DNA of 64,000 bases. Source: Ignisphaera aggregans DSM 17230. Lineage in GTDB: Archaea; Thermoproteota; Thermoprotei_A; Sulfolobales; Ignisphaeraceae. Location: assembly GCA_000145985.1 (NCBI GenBank), contig CP002098.1, positions 1,060,182 through 1,124,181 of the forward strand, read 5' to 3'. Under the pieces are notes generated by a model. It ran no database searches, was not told where the DNA came from, and saw nothing but the letters and a program-made list of their open reading frames with translations. Below, in pieces: positions 7,538 to 22,055 of this stretch (positions are counted from its first letter, which is position 1; the number at the start of each line of letters is the position of its first letter). The translations under genes and the position numbers were made by a program.

Positions 7538-8121
7538 TTGTAAAAATTATAATGCTAACACTCATATGTAAAGCTTTCTATTATATGGCTAGCCTAGCCA
7601 CATATAGCGTCCTTTGTATTGTATCTCATTATCATAAATTAGATTTAGCTATGTTATTAGAAAAGTACTAACTAAGTACAGGAGATTTTTCATAGGTTAT
7701 CGAATCATTATCTTTATACCATCGATAATAGCAGAGGTGTAGTATAGCGAGATAATACTAGCTATTATCATAATAGTTAATAGAGGTGTAAATAACTTAG
7801 GATTCATTACATATATACTTAATTAGATCAATATATTTAATGTTTTAATCATCTTAGATTTAACGGGAAACAGGCTTGTAGAAATTAATATCAATGAAAA
7901 CCTAGGTCTATAACATCGATGGAATTATAGTTATTGAAGAGAATTTTCATACATATCTAAATAATTAACAAAGGATTCTCAGCTTACCACCCCCAATATA
8001 TAGTTTATATACATAATAGTACTTGAACTATATATTATGATTGTATAGATCTTGTTAATTAATATTTAAATTAGAGGAATTTAGAGATTAAAAATTATAG
8101 TTAAACATCATAGGGATCTCC
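7538..8121. other. Intergenic region between divergent corrinoid operon and surface protease
   Basis: This AT-rich region of 584 bases separates two divergent transcripts. It holds a perfect 13-base palindrome (GGCTAGCCTAGCC, 7587-7599) about 50 bases upstream of the corrinoid gene. A TATA-like run (attaatatttaaatta) near 8058-8073 lies about 50 bases before the protease start. I see no reading frame of interest, no tRNA and no C/D box pair. Confidence 0.5.
7587..7599. promoter_or_regulatory. Perfect palindrome upstream of the corrinoid operon, possible operator
   Basis: GGCTAG-C-CTAGCC is an exact inverted repeat 50-62 bases upstream of the corrinoid protein start at 7537. The position suits a transcription-factor site near the promoter. 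No regulator is identified. Confidence 0.35.
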
Positions 8122-16039: not shown

Positions 16040-16214
16040 CGTAGCGGGTCTTGTGATTATTTTTGAGAAATTCAAACATCTTTTTAACATCATCGAGATT
16101 TATTGGATATGGCCTTACATCGAGTTTATAGCTTCTTGAGAGCACTACCTACATTATCCAGCCGAGAACCTCTGAAGAGATCCTTCTCTTATGATATAGA
16201 TACTGAAAGACTCT
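16040..16214 (-). pseudogene. Fragment of an archaeal tyrosine integrase (middle region)
   Basis: The frame from 16214 reads RVFQYLYHKRRISSEVLGWIM, interrupted by a TAG, then VVLSRSYKLDVRPYPINLDD followed by VKKMFEFLKNN. This resembles the stretch just before the catalytic domain of crenarchaeal tyrosine recombinases, recalled from family sequences and not searched. The sequence then dissolves into the 5' end of the M24 gene. The catalytic Arg, His and Tyr regions are not present. It is on the same strand as the integrase N-terminal piece next to the tRNA at 21700-21901. Confidence 0.55.
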
Positions 16215-16682
16215 CAGGAAAGTAAAGCTATAGAGCCTCCAAATCCATAGACTTGCTACAACCTGTTATAGCCATAAGCTGAGAATGCTACGAAATCATC
16301 AGAGATTGTTTCTAGTGGTATCTTTCAGTCTTTTCTAATTGTTTCGATTACAAAAGTTAGAGCAACTTATAAAGGGAAACGACATATACTCAGGTATCGC
16401 AATATCGGGATGATTCTGATGAGCTTCACCTCTCCGCGGTGCTTCATCTCTTTCAACCTCTTCTTACCGATTCCCTGCCTCGTCTTGCTCTATCCGTCTC
16501 TACCCTACAGGATCAGCCCAGAAGAATACTCAAAGTAAGTGCTTATCTGTTGCGTCGCCGTGCTTCGAGATTTTCTCATTTATCGAGATTCTGCTGAAGA
16601 TCTCCGGAGCCGGTGAAGAGAGAGAAAATGGTGTTGAAGTGGTTGGGTCTGTTCTCCTCTTGGTGCTGGTCGGCAGAGGTGC
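16215..16682. other. Gap without recognisable genes
   Basis: About 470 bases separate the integrase fragment from the membrane protein gene. From roughly 16400 the composition shifts to higher G+C than the flanking DNA. A frame around 16260-16340 on the minus strand reads LETISDDFVAFSAYGYNRL and may be a gene remnant, but I cannot place it. No RNA gene or repeat seen. Confidence 0.4.
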
Positions 16683-17315
16683 TCAGACCATGGATACTTG
16701 GGGAGATGCAGACATCGATTGTGTGTGCCTTTCGATACTCCCTCCGAGTGCTATGTACATCAGTATCCATGCTATGGGTGTTAGTAGCTCCACGAAGATC
16801 CCTATGATGAAGAGTATTCCTGCTACTAGGTAGAGGGTGTTCTTCTCGGCGTCGTGAAGATTGAATGCCAGTATTATCACGCCGATCTTGCCGATCAGCA
16901 GAAGTATTGCCCCGATGATGAGCAGTACAACACCTATTACTATCAGTAAGAGGGGTATCCCTATGATGAGCAGTATCAACCCCCAGAAGTAGCCTATATC
17001 AATCAGCGTTGCAGCTGTTGAATACCTCTGATCTGCTTCTCTCAGCATCAGGGCTCCAGGCCTCAAGTAGGAGTAGAAAGCTATGAAGGTTATCACTGCG
17101 CCGACAAGCATTGCGATGGCAGCCGCAAATGATCCGACGAAGAGATGACTCATAAGGTCTGCAAAGCCCAGCCTAAGCATTGACAGTGCACCGGTGAGGG
17201 CTCCGAGACTCATCATGAAGCCAGCTATTATCAACAGGAGCGATGCTGAACGTATTCTCTGTAATGCTTCACCCATTCTCTGTATCTGCGGAGACGATGC
17301 ACCCATTCGATTCAC
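16683..17315 (-). CDS. DUF973-like multispanning membrane protein
   Basis: A 210-residue protein starting at GTG, with about six hydrophobic helices. Segments such as LLLIIAGFMMSLGALTGALS, FIAFYSYLRPG and YFWGLILLIIGIPLLLI are typical of crenarchaeal DUF973 proteins, whose function is unknown. A C-terminal polar tail follows the last helix. A TATA-like element (ACATTTAAAAAC) lies on the minus strand near 17347-17360. The gene is intact and its codon use and composition are GC-richer than core genes. It lies in the same island as the bacteriocin-like cassette, but no functional link can be shown. Confidence 0.6.
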   Translation of the reverse strand: MNRMGASSPQIQRMGEALQRIRSASLLLIIAGFMMSLGALTGALSMLRLGFADLMSHLFVGSFAAAIAMLVGAVITFIAFYSYLRPGALMLREADQRYSTAATLIDIGYFWGLILLIIGIPLLLIVIGVVLLIIGAILLLIGKIGVIILAFNLHDAEKNTLYLVAGILFIIGIFVELLTPIAWILMYIALGGSIERHTQSMSASPQVSMV

Positions 17316-18191: not shown

Positions 18192-18973
18192 CTATTGCCT
18201 ACCCCTCCGGATAAGTGTCAAAATCGACAATACCAAAATCACTCCTAGTCCAAATCCAATGCTGAGTAGAGAACGTCTGAAAGTAAAGCAGCAAGTGTTA
18301 CCGTCTCCGTCTTCATTACCGTCTCTATCTCTCTCACGGTTTGATATGTCGTAGTGGTCGTAGTTAATGTTTCAACTTTAGTTAAGGTGATTGTGTTGGT
18401 AATAGTTATAGTGATGGGTGATGTTACTGTATCCGTAGCCGTTAACGTTTTTGTAGCTGTTTGTGTTAACGTATGCGTAACAGTTGTAGTCATCAAAGTT
18501 GGTATAGCTAGAGAATAAATCACACCTCTAATGCTTCCATTATAGATGTTGTTTCCAACAACATATATGTTATATCCATCAAACGCAACTTTACCGGTAC
18601 CAAACCCCGAAATTCCAAGAATGTTTCCACTTAGGAGCTGCTTATTAAGAATCTTCAAGTTCTTATCTAAAACATAGAGCCAATGATTATCATTCTTCGA
18701 TGAGAAAGCATATACAGCATTACTCGTACAAACAATCTTCATGACATTGCTAACATCCTTGTTGACATCAACAACAGTGCCACTACTATCGAATTTAGCT
18801 ATACCGTAATCACCTCCGATATACCCATATCCACTATCATCAAAGCGTATAGCATTTGCTGTGCCGATATATCTGCTATCACTCTCCGAATAGTCCACTC
18901 TTCTAATCTCATTCAATTGCTTATCCAGAACAACCACAAAAATGTGTATTGTGCTGCTATCATCCCAGTTCAT
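18192..18973 (-). pseudogene. Cell-surface protein with Thr-rich stalk, truncated and frameshifted
   Basis: The main frame (18245-18973) encodes short repeats that look like beta-propeller blades (YGYIGGDYGIAKFDSSG, AVYAFSSKNDNHWLYVLDKN), then a Thr-rich stalk (ATKTLTATDTVTSPITITIT and similar). It ends abruptly at 18245. A different frame just beyond encodes the expected C-terminal anchor, LLSIGFGLGVILVLSILTLI followed by RRGRQ and a stop at 18192, so a frameshift near 18290 has detached the membrane anchor. No signal peptide is seen at the start, so the N-terminus is probably missing too. It was once an externally displayed protein. Confidence 0.6.
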
Positions 18974-19536: not shown

Positions 19537-20553
19537 ATGCAGGTTAGAAGGGTATCGATGATCCTAGTGCTGGTATTGGTGATGCTTAGCAATGTGTTGG
19601 TGCCAGCGATCACGCCGGCAATCGCATCGACGGGGACGACAGATGCAGTTCTTCTGAAAAGGGTCGTTGTGGTGTCTATAGACGAAAAGGGAAAACTGCT
19701 GTTGAACATAACTTGGATAAACCAGACGATAGAATTTGGAAATGGAACATGTGGCGGCAACTATTCATGTGCGTGCATCAGCGGCGGTACGTGTCCTGCA
19801 ATACCTTACAGTGTTGATATCAACGTGATTTACAACGTGAGCGAGAAGGAGGAGAGTTTAGAGCTGTTAAAAGCCGTGGTTTACAATGAGAGCTTCAGCT
19901 ACAGCTTCTATGTGCTGGTCTACAGAGCTGAACGCAACCAGTACAACGTGAGCGTTGTAACGGAGATTATGCCTATAAACGTCACGTACCTCTTCATAAC
20001 CGCAGTCAACATCGCTCCGAGGGACGACAAGGCCCAGCCCGTAGCAGACGCGGTGTTCCTCGTCAACAAGACGACTCTCGCAGACCACTACAGGCTTCTC
20101 GGCGACGTGCTGAACGAGATAAGGAAGAATGATACCACTAGCTTGATATGGAACAAAGTGAAGATCGAGCTAAACAATCTGGCGAAGAGAGTCGAAAAAG
20201 ATCTGGCCGACTACAACGTTGTGGGCATAGGAATCGCTACAGCTATGAATGGAGTTACAGTTTGCGCGTTCCCATTGGGGGTGCTTATTACTTTTGAGTG
20301 CTTGGATCCCCGAGCCCCGATCAATGTAGTCGTAGCAGTTTGCTGTGGTTCTTTGTATTCGATAGTAGTAACGTGTGCATTTACATGCATAGGATCTCTG
20401 GGGATCGGATGTATAGGTTGCATAGTCGGCGGTGCTTTAGCTGCATGGGCGGCGATGGGTGGCTGCTATGGATACTGTCCAGCAATGGAGGTTTGCTTGA
20501 AAGTACCGTGGATATTTGGGTGGATAACTGTAGTATGCGCCAGGCTCCGGTAA
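19537..20553 (+). CDS. Secreted cysteine-rich precursor, putative halocin C8-like bacteriocin (archaeocin)
   Basis: A 338-residue protein with a Sec-type signal peptide (about residues 1-31, ending AITPAIAS). The extracellular middle (about 32-240) has many N-glycosylation sequons and four Cys at 72-86. The hydrophobic C-terminal part (about 243-338) has 12 Cys, including the adjacent pair 269-270, then Cys 280, 284, 292, 295, 310, 314, 320 and 334, among Gly, Ala, Val and Ile. A long N-terminal region plus a compact Cys-rich tail is the layout of halocin C8 precursors, where the N-part gives immunity and the tail is the toxin. A small membrane protein follows 39 bases later, and a second, partly degraded cassette follows that. 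DNA is GC-richer than core genes. Bacteriocin function is inferred. Confidence 0.6.
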   Translation: MQVRRVSMILVLVLVMLSNVLVPAITPAIASTGTTDAVLLKRVVVVSIDEKGKLLLNITWINQTIEFGNGTCGGNYSCACISGGTCPAIPYSVDINVIYNVSEKEESLELLKAVVYNESFSYSFYVLVYRAERNQYNVSVVTEIMPINVTYLFITAVNIAPRDDKAQPVADAVFLVNKTTLADHYRLLGDVLNEIRKNDTTSLIWNKVKIELNNLAKRVEKDLADYNVVGIGIATAMNGVTVCAFPLGVLITFECLDPRAPINVVVAVCCGSLYSIVVTCAFTCIGSLGIGCIGCIVGGALAAWAAMGGCYGYCPAMEVCLKVPWIFGWITVVCARLR

Positions 20554-20592
20554 AAATTTTAAATCTAGTTTTGGTAGTAAGGGTGGGATAGT

Positions 20593-20937
20593 ATGAATCT
20601 GCTCGGGAGCCTGCTTGCGCAGAGCCAGATCGTGGCAATTTCGGCTCTGTCATACGGTATCGTCTATCTCTCACTCCTAATTGTGTATAGATCCCGGTAT
20701 AAATCTCCCAGACAAAAAGTGGCCTGGGCTATGCAGATTGAACTTGCAGCTTATCTTATAGTGATGGGCGTTTTGCACTGGCTCAACATGTACGGAGTCG
20801 AAACGGGGATTGCGTGGGGTCTGGCTGCATGGTTTTTCCTATTCGCTGCGCTGGCAACCATCATCCTCTACCTGATTAATAAATTGGGATCCTCCAGCCG
20901 TGCATTGAGCCCCAGTCAAGCTCGAACAATCGAATAG
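20593..20937 (+). CDS. Three-helix membrane protein, putative immunity/export partner of the bacteriocin-like precursor
   Basis: A 114-residue protein with three predicted membrane helices (about residues 12-32, 43-64 and 73-95) and a polar C-terminal tail. A TATA-like aaaaattttaaat at about 20554-20566 and a GGGTGGG ribosome site precede the ATG. It is clearly homologous to the 94-residue protein at 21367: both start M-x-LLG, share LIVYRSR or MIVYRSR, then a Trp-containing second helix with GVL-x-WL and a Tyr-Gly motif (MYGVET, LYGIDT). Its place directly after the secreted Cys-rich gene suggests immunity or export. No known family is recognised. Confidence 0.6.
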   Translation: MNLLGSLLAQSQIVAISALSYGIVYLSLLIVYRSRYKSPRQKVAWAMQIELAAYLIVMGVLHWLNMYGVETGIAWGLAAWFFLFAALATIILYLINKLGSSSRALSPSQARTIE

Positions 20938-21147
20938 AGGAAGCGGCTTCGAAACACGTCTAGAAGCCCCAATTTCTATTTTTACCGATATCAACCGGCT
21001 CACCTCACCAGACGTAGTCAACGCCAAGAGGGCGCTTCAGACTTCGGTTTATTCGAGGGCTCTAGCCCTATCTTCTGCGTATAGTGGCTAGTTGCTGTCC
21101 TCACTAGTGTGCCGCGACGCTACGCGCAACCCCGGTACAGTACAGGC

Positions 21148-21306
21148 GCAGAAATAGAATGTATATCTCGCATAATTTTCGGCGCTTACGGTTTATGGGG
21201 TGCGCTAAATAGTTGCTACCATGACTGTCCAGTAATGGATATTTGTTTAGAGGTAGACTTGATATTTTGGCGGATAACTGTTGCGTGCGCCAGGCTCTGG
21301 GGGTAA
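21148..21306 (+). pseudogene. Truncated second copy of the bacteriocin-like precursor (C-terminal end only)
   Basis: The last 52 codons match the C-terminus of the 338-residue precursor. NSCYHDCPVMDICLEV aligns with GGCYGYCPAMEVCLKV, and WRITVACARLWG aligns with GWITVVCARLR. The Cys spacing of the final four cysteines is kept. The signal peptide and N-terminal region are missing, and upstream DNA has no matching frame. The relation to the following membrane-protein gene is the same as in the first cassette. Confidence 0.75.
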
Positions 21307-21366: not shown

Positions 21367-21651
21367 ATGGATCTGCTTGGGCTAATCATGGCGGTTTTGC
21401 CTCTGTCGATAGGTGTTACCGTTCTTCCACTTATGATTGTGTACAGATCCCGAATTCCGAAGATGGCTTGGATCATAAATATCGAAGCCGCAATTAATGG
21501 TATTGTGGTTGGTGTTTTACAGTGGCTCCACCTGTACGGGATCGACACAACAGTTGCACGTGCTCTGGCTGCAGGGCTCTTCAGTTTCGCCATTATTGCA
21601 ACCTCCGCCCTCTTCCTGGTTAAGGAATTGAGGAGGCCAAGGCGTAGCTGA
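21367..21651 (+). CDS. Second copy of the three-helix membrane protein (putative immunity partner)
   Basis: A 94-residue paralogue of the protein at 20593-20937, intact, with the same three-helix layout (MDLLGLIMAV, MIVYRSR, GVLQWLHLYGID). It is shorter, having lost a loop after the first helix and the polar C-terminal tail. The upstream region repeats the AT-rich promoter-like sequence seen before the first copy (aaaatttaaaaatttttaat, about 21307-21327) and has an AGAGGTGG ribosome site. Survival of this gene beside a truncated precursor would fit an orphan immunity gene. Confidence 0.6.
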   Translation: MDLLGLIMAVLPLSIGVTVLPLMIVYRSRIPKMAWIINIEAAINGIVVGVLQWLHLYGIDTTVARALAAGLFSFAIIATSALFLVKELRRPRRS

Positions 21652-21699: not shown

Positions 21700-21901
21700 T
21701 TACTTCTCGCCTCTTAAATTCTTTAGGTATCTGTAGAGGTAGTTCTAGAGCTTCGCAAGCATTAGAGAATCCCAGCTTGTTCTTAACAGCTTCTAGGATG
21801 ACCCTCTTAGTCTCTTCGCGGAGAGCCTCGATATTTACAGACTCATACCAATAATCCTTCGAATAGACTATCGAAATACCATCAGCTTTGAATTCAGACA
21901 C
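21700..21901 (-). pseudogene. N-terminal fragment of an archaeal tyrosine integrase beside tRNA-Arg
   Basis: The frame from the GTG at 21901 reads SEFKADGISIVYSKDYWYES, then LREETKRVILEAVKNKLGF and SNACEAL. A frameshift near 21745 then gives NYLYRYLKNLRGEK and a stop at 21700. This resembles the N-terminal helix-turn-helix region of crenarchaeal tyrosine integrases (memory of the family, not searched). It reads away from the tRNA 3' end, 77 bases from it, which is where an integrase gene lies in elements inserted at a tRNA. The rest of the gene is gone from here; another piece lies at 16040-16214. Confidence 0.55.
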
Positions 21902-21977
21902 GAGTTCCCAGTCTCACAAAACCCTGAAAAATTATTCAATTAGAGAACTTAAGTATTTATGAGAGAATCCAATTCTG

Positions 21978-22055
21978 TGGCGGGCCCGCGGGGATTCGAA
22001 CCCCGGACCACCGGCTTAGAAGGCCGGCGCTCTGTCCTGGCTGAGCTACGGGCCC
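21978..22055 (-). tRNA. tRNA-Arg (anticodon UCU)
   Basis: A complete cloverleaf: acceptor strands GGGCCCG and CGGGCCC, D-arm GCTC/GAGC, and anticodon stem CCGGC/GCCGG with loop CTTCTAA (anticodon TCT, read as UCU, decoding AGA). The T-arm is CGGGG-TTCGAAT-CCCCG, followed by discriminator G and an encoded CCA at 21978-21980. No intron. It lies 35 bases downstream of alaS on the same strand. Its 3' end marks the right border of the accessory island. Confidence 0.97.

Follow-up and report, generated by a model that had tools for sequence, protein, structure and literature searches.

What are two adjacent genes of Ignisphaera aggregans for, of which the first encodes a cysteine-rich protein with a leader and the second a small membrane protein? 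The pair had been predicted, from the letters alone, to be a halocin C8-like bacteriocin and its partner, and we examined it in the stretch of DNA on which it was noticed (the window; 64,000 nucleotides, G000:C1:1060182-1124181, in a single-contig genome of 1,875,953 bp (PMC3035270)). The precursor gene (window positions 19537..20553, + strand) is an ORF of 338 aa with a Shine-Dalgarno-like GGTGAT just 5' of it. Its product comprises a signal-peptide-like leader (residues 1-30; 19537..19626, +), with a basic start and a hydrophobic segment at 8-26; a conserved N-domain (residues 44-242; 19666..20262, +), supported by alignments A1 and A2, by dN/dS and by its sequons; and a tail that we call type A (residues 243-338; 20263..20550, +), a candidate mature peptide recognized by its Cys positions, homologous tails and dN/dS. 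This tail is hydrophobic, with 12 Cys and three hydrophobic segments in 96 residues. After a gap of 40 bp follows the partner gene (20593..20937, +), an ORF for a 114-aa protein with three predicted transmembrane (TM) segments and a candidate immunity protein, preceded by the Shine-Dalgarno-like GGGTGGGAT; with such sequences before both genes and so short a gap, precursor and partner are likely cotranscribed. The predicted ORF pair (19537-20553 and 20593-20937), signal peptide and hydrophobic 12-Cys C-terminus are therefore borne out. The supposed glycosylation-rich middle does carry ten N-x-S/T sequons for N-glycosylation (residues 57-198), but it proves to be a conserved domain common to other archaea.

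Neither gene has a usable match in Pfam, NCBIfam or PHROGs. The PDB holds no convincing relative of the precursor, and a single-sequence AlphaFold2 model of the N-domain reached a pLDDT of only 38, too low for use. For the partner, no Pfam, NCBIfam or PDB relative emerged, as expected of a three-helix membrane protein without a recognized family, and a search of 214 genomes of the order found convincing relatives only at five I. aggregans cassette loci. The window itself holds both genes in duplicate: a second partner gene (21367..21651, +; three TM segments, 94 aa) is 47% identical to the first, and ahead of it, within an ORF at 21109-21306, a second precursor survives as a decayed tail (21151..21297, +; 51% identity to residues 289-337). 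The pair thus sits where it was placed, at 19537-20937, but the feature as a whole reaches to about 21651. Additional copies or remnants occur in the genome at 1,869 kb (55%; N-terminus frameshifted), 1,245 kb, 872 kb and 264 kb; these loci are mostly broken, and the only intact precursor copy found in I. aggregans is the window's. A 350-bp segment with the second partner gene is shared by the window and the 1,869-kb locus at 92% DNA identity. Two decayed cassettes each lie at the end of a CRISPR array (L029 4964-8276, ~1,243-1,246 kb; L031 3203-7115, ~869-873 kb), with one further degenerate repeat beyond each; none of the spacers of the two arrays matches the cassette loci.

The same gene pair recurs in many genomes and so is not a chance juxtaposition. 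Of 214 genomes of the order, 12 have an N-domain recognized by profiles built in this analysis; at the level of the class the count is 13 among 229 genomes, and for Thermoproteota as a whole 25 among 398 sampled, from at least ten taxonomic families of the phylum. Several more distant members begin with a rhodanese domain, followed by the same N-domain and a Cys-rich tail (L125, L128, L129, L130 and L133); that a Cys-rich peptide should be joined to an exported sulfurtransferase is odd. Other members (G004b, G005 and G096) have Cys-poor tails, and Cys-poor hydrophobic tails followed by small membrane genes are seen at L102 3498-4634, L103 5500-6804 and L100 5331-6194. Divergently adjoining the G160 precursor is a radical-SAM/SPASM-like ORF (L059 6438-7895), possibly a housekeeping gene or a modification enzyme. 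A tree of N-domains groups the genus-mate's copy with the more distant lineages and leaves the I. aggregans copy outside, at a support (88/81) that does not reach the starred threshold. Searches for relatives in phages and in viral contigs found none, nor did scans of genome contigs; all the relatives detected come from the numbered genomes of our set.

Does the precursor belong with halocin C8? It has the predicted layout of signal sequence, N-part and Cys-rich hydrophobic C-terminus; homology of the tail is another matter. The window protein has no match at E<=10 to TIGR04449 (halocin_C8_dom), so that the profile check proposed for the tail came out negative, and direct homology of the tail to halocin C8 was rejected after comparison with TIGR04449 members stayed at shuffle level, also between profiles. 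The best scores in the family, 15.9 bits for G018 and 14.7 bits for G002, are below the cut-off of 24 bits. The tail of G002, the genus-mate, is nonetheless 40% identical over 84 aa to a Sulfolobaceae protein that passes that cut-off and matches TIGR04449 members with an hhalign probability of 96% (z 17), and the end of the N-domain before it is 83% identical to its G004a counterpart; the tails of G018 and G425 are borderline (0/60 shuffles). The tail slot of the family can therefore hold a halocin-C8-type peptide although the window gene itself is not a TIGR04449 member, and through G002 the link between the family and halocin C8 is indirect but real. TIGR04449 proteins above the cut-off occur in four Sulfolobaceae genomes, with an adjoining membrane gene at the loci read, and also on haloarchaeal plasmids, where a query that we took to be the mature peptide of halocin C8 matched proteins annotated as halocin C8-like; G096 has both an N-domain member and, within 6 kb of it, a TIGR04449 gene. 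The expectation that such a cassette would be new or barely described in Desulfurococcales-like archaea needs qualifying, since the family is Thermoproteota-wide and Sulfolobaceae already have TIGR04449 proteins above the cut-off.

The case of G002 is one of several in which the two halves of the precursor have separate histories. Between G073 and G160 the N-domains are 20% and the tails 56% identical, and between G197 and G085 the values are 25% and 43%; conversely, G004a and G002 are 83% identical in their N-domains and 34% in their tails, the latter not above shuffles. Two genomes of family f22 have the tail type of the window, G250 (z 10.1) and G324 (z 12.8). Tails have thus been exchanged independently of the N-domain. 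Comparison of the window gene with its paralogue gives dN/dS of 0.26 for N-domain residues 157-242 and 0.71 for the tail, a contrast that, the paralogue being a pseudogene upstream, is only suggestive of a tail evolving faster than the N-domain.

Directly after every one of 15 precursors, on the same strand and at -72 to +130 bp, lies a small hydrophobic or TM ORF (in one case with just one TM segment), whereas only 11 of 138 control ORFs are followed by a small membrane ORF; the search for a membrane gene beside similar precursors that the original prediction had proposed thus turned up no homologue without its partner among these 15, and more members, from other orders, likewise have a small membrane gene downstream. 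Partners are mostly non-homologous between species, but those of G073 and G160, whose tails are of one type, are related. Across 22 loci, with N-domain similarity controlled, partner similarity follows tail similarity (partial Mantel r=0.27, p=0.001; r 0.24, p 0.004 without the paralogue), a covariation of partner type with tail type that is modest, as partners also track the N-domain (r 0.23). A conserved N-part with exchangeable tails and an adjacent partner covarying, if modestly, with the tail (partial r 0.27) are both marks of polymorphic toxin-immunity systems; together with the fast tail, tail swapping and partner covariation look, as far as sequences can tell, like the behaviour of such a system.

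These partners need not confer immunity. In SSV9 B310/C108 the gene ahead of the 3-TM gene encodes a secreted protein of demonstrated toxicity, which shows that such a pair can truly kill in hyperthermophilic archaea; in the SSV system, though, the small downstream gene has no detectable effect and B310 protects without its 3-TM neighbour (PMC8628083), and the partner in our family may correspondingly be something other than an immunity protein. A possible, if somewhat doubtful, alternative is that the precursor is indeed a secreted toxin but the partner an export, maturation or anchoring factor, with self-protection supplied by the N-domain, in the style of halocin C8, or by the whole precursor. 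That halocin C8 provides its own immunity factor, that B310 protects alone and that selection constrains the N-domain more strongly than it does the tail all fit this alternative; partners that differ so much between species and covary with tail type are better explained by immunity.

The DNA of the cassette also differs from its surroundings. Its GC content is 0.479, compared with 0.347 in the flanking window, and GC3 is 0.58 in the precursor gene and 0.23 in the adjoining alanyl-tRNA synthetase gene; the GC-rich stretch is shared by a gene for a DUF973 membrane protein (16683-17315, -; Pfam E 8e-12). The G073 cassette (L034 7788-10208) is part of an intact 11-kb element integrated at tRNA-Ser, bounded by the tRNA gene (18656-18742) and a 60-bp att repeat of it (7558-7617, 96.7%), with a 501-aa integrase that starts within the tRNA-Ser gene and matches Phage_integr_3, an archaeal-virus type. 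The window holds two relics of a similar integrase, an N-terminal one (21746..21910, -; tblastn, 40% to residues 52-98 of the G073 integrase) and a middle one (16050..16220, -; tblastn, 51% to residues 262-318), the former starting ~70 bp from the 3' end of a tRNA-Arg(TCT) gene (21978..22055, -; ARAGORN), the presumed integration target. No second att copy was recognized in the window. Its cassette appears to sit in the relic of a tRNA-Arg element similar to that of G073. The 1,869-kb copy has as its neighbour a 24.6-kb element at tRNA-Gly (1844.0-1868.7 kb), with a full-length integrase related to these relics; the copy is outside the element, ~280 bp past its distal att copy. The element (L121, L122), with its many ORFs, is plausibly an undescribed archaeal virus or plasmid. 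From these three loci, cassettes recur at the borders of integrative elements; as cargo of an element, the cassette is demonstrated for G073 only. The inference of transfer that had been drawn from GC-rich DNA is accordingly supported by composition, integrase relics and tRNA-integrated elements alike.

Such surroundings, in or next to integrated elements whose integrases are of the archaeal-virus type, also suit a protein of the elements themselves: an exclusion or surface protein, its tail a membrane anchor, that blocks infection or conjugation by related elements and kills nothing. Rapid tail evolution is found in exclusion systems too. We nevertheless consider this unlikely, because a plain anchor needs neither 10-16 Cys nor exchange for a TIGR04449-type domain, and a small TM gene stands at every locus. 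Least probable of all is an ordinary glycoprotein, S-layer-associated or otherwise on the surface, whose Cys-rich tail lies close to the membrane. It would fit the ten N-glycosylation sequons, the signal peptide and the N-terminal rhodanese domain of some members, yet a gene so patchy (25 of 398 genomes), pseudogenized, duplicated, foreign in composition and swapped in its tails is unlike housekeeping surface proteins.

We think it probable, instead, that the pair belongs to the archaeocins (archaeal bacteriocins), as a cassette with exchangeable tails that acts in the manner of halocin C8 and is carried by tRNA-integrating elements. Against this reading stand the window tail, which has no profile similarity to a characterized bacteriocin, and the Cys-poor members. 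From the observed gene content, modularity, covariation and mobility we infer a course of export, cleavage, toxicity and immunity. The precursor would be exported (its leader looks Sec-type) and the tail released at the junction with the N-domain, near the conserved D238 and C243; the tail would then oxidize to a disulfide-bonded, membrane-active peptide able to permeabilize the membranes of related archaea. The partner would shield the producer by binding or blocking the peptide in the membrane, while the N-domain, like the N-part of halocin C8, might serve as a carrier or an intramolecular silencer. It also counts against the archaeocin reading that, in an unsystematic look at ORFs beside the cassettes, neither an ABC transporter for export nor a protease nor a modification enzyme stood out.

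Rather more tentatively, and with less than even confidence, we suggest that these cassettes represent an undescribed, phylum-wide polymorphic archaeocin system of Thermoproteota, in which a conserved exported N-domain, sometimes fused to rhodanese, is combined with interchangeable Cys-rich membrane-active tails and cognate membrane immunity proteins and is partly dispersed in hyperthermophiles by tRNA-integrating elements. To our knowledge, there is hardly any documentation of antagonism beyond haloarchaea and Sulfolobus. In their abstract, Makarova et al. 2019 reportedly enlarge the halocin C8 family and predict additional conflict systems in archaea, and the cassette family may possibly already be among those predictions. 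If the suggestion is correct, cultured hyperthermophiles offer named, testable toxin-immunity pairs, integrative elements are a route by which such pairs spread, and the tails are a source of peptides, perhaps with six disulfides, stable near 100 degrees C. A halocin C8-type tail separable from its carrier would mean that a peptide module moves between unrelated precursors.

How does the family compare with systems already known? Like the window precursor, halocin C8 has a signal sequence, a larger N-part and a Cys-rich hydrophobic C-terminal domain, and a small membrane gene lies downstream at two of the haloarchaeal loci read; the N-domain, by contrast, is unrelated to those of halocin C8 and the Sulfolobaceae TIGR04449 proteins. 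The window leader is Sec-like, whereas that of HalC8 is Tat-type. Halocin C8 releases a peptide from its C-terminal part and an immunity protein from its N-terminal part (PMC8628083, PMC12893001). The SSV toxins of Fuselloviridae (SSV9 B310 with C108; SSV11 p29) resemble the cassette in pairing a secreted protein of ~300 aa, with a signal peptide, with a small 3-TM gene, and are akin to the family in their Sulfolobales setting, integrating viral carrier and allelic diversity (PMC8628083), but B310 lacks a Cys-rich tail. No homology to B310 was found, the A2 profile having no match in AY423772 at E<=10, a weak negative because the search had no positive control. Sulfolobicins SulA and SulB are likewise secreted antimicrobial proteins of crenarchaea (PMC8628083); unlike the window system they comprise two signal-peptide proteins, a distinction drawn from description, not sequence. 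With polymorphic toxin systems the family shares the conserved N-part, the exchangeable C-terminus, the adjacent partner and, in the window, decayed second copies, while its tails are short Cys-rich hydrophobic peptides and not enzymatic domains, and no contact-dependent delivery module was seen. Archaeocins and polymorphic toxins are thus kinds already known, of which this cassette family is a variant with an N-domain and a tail repertoire of its own.
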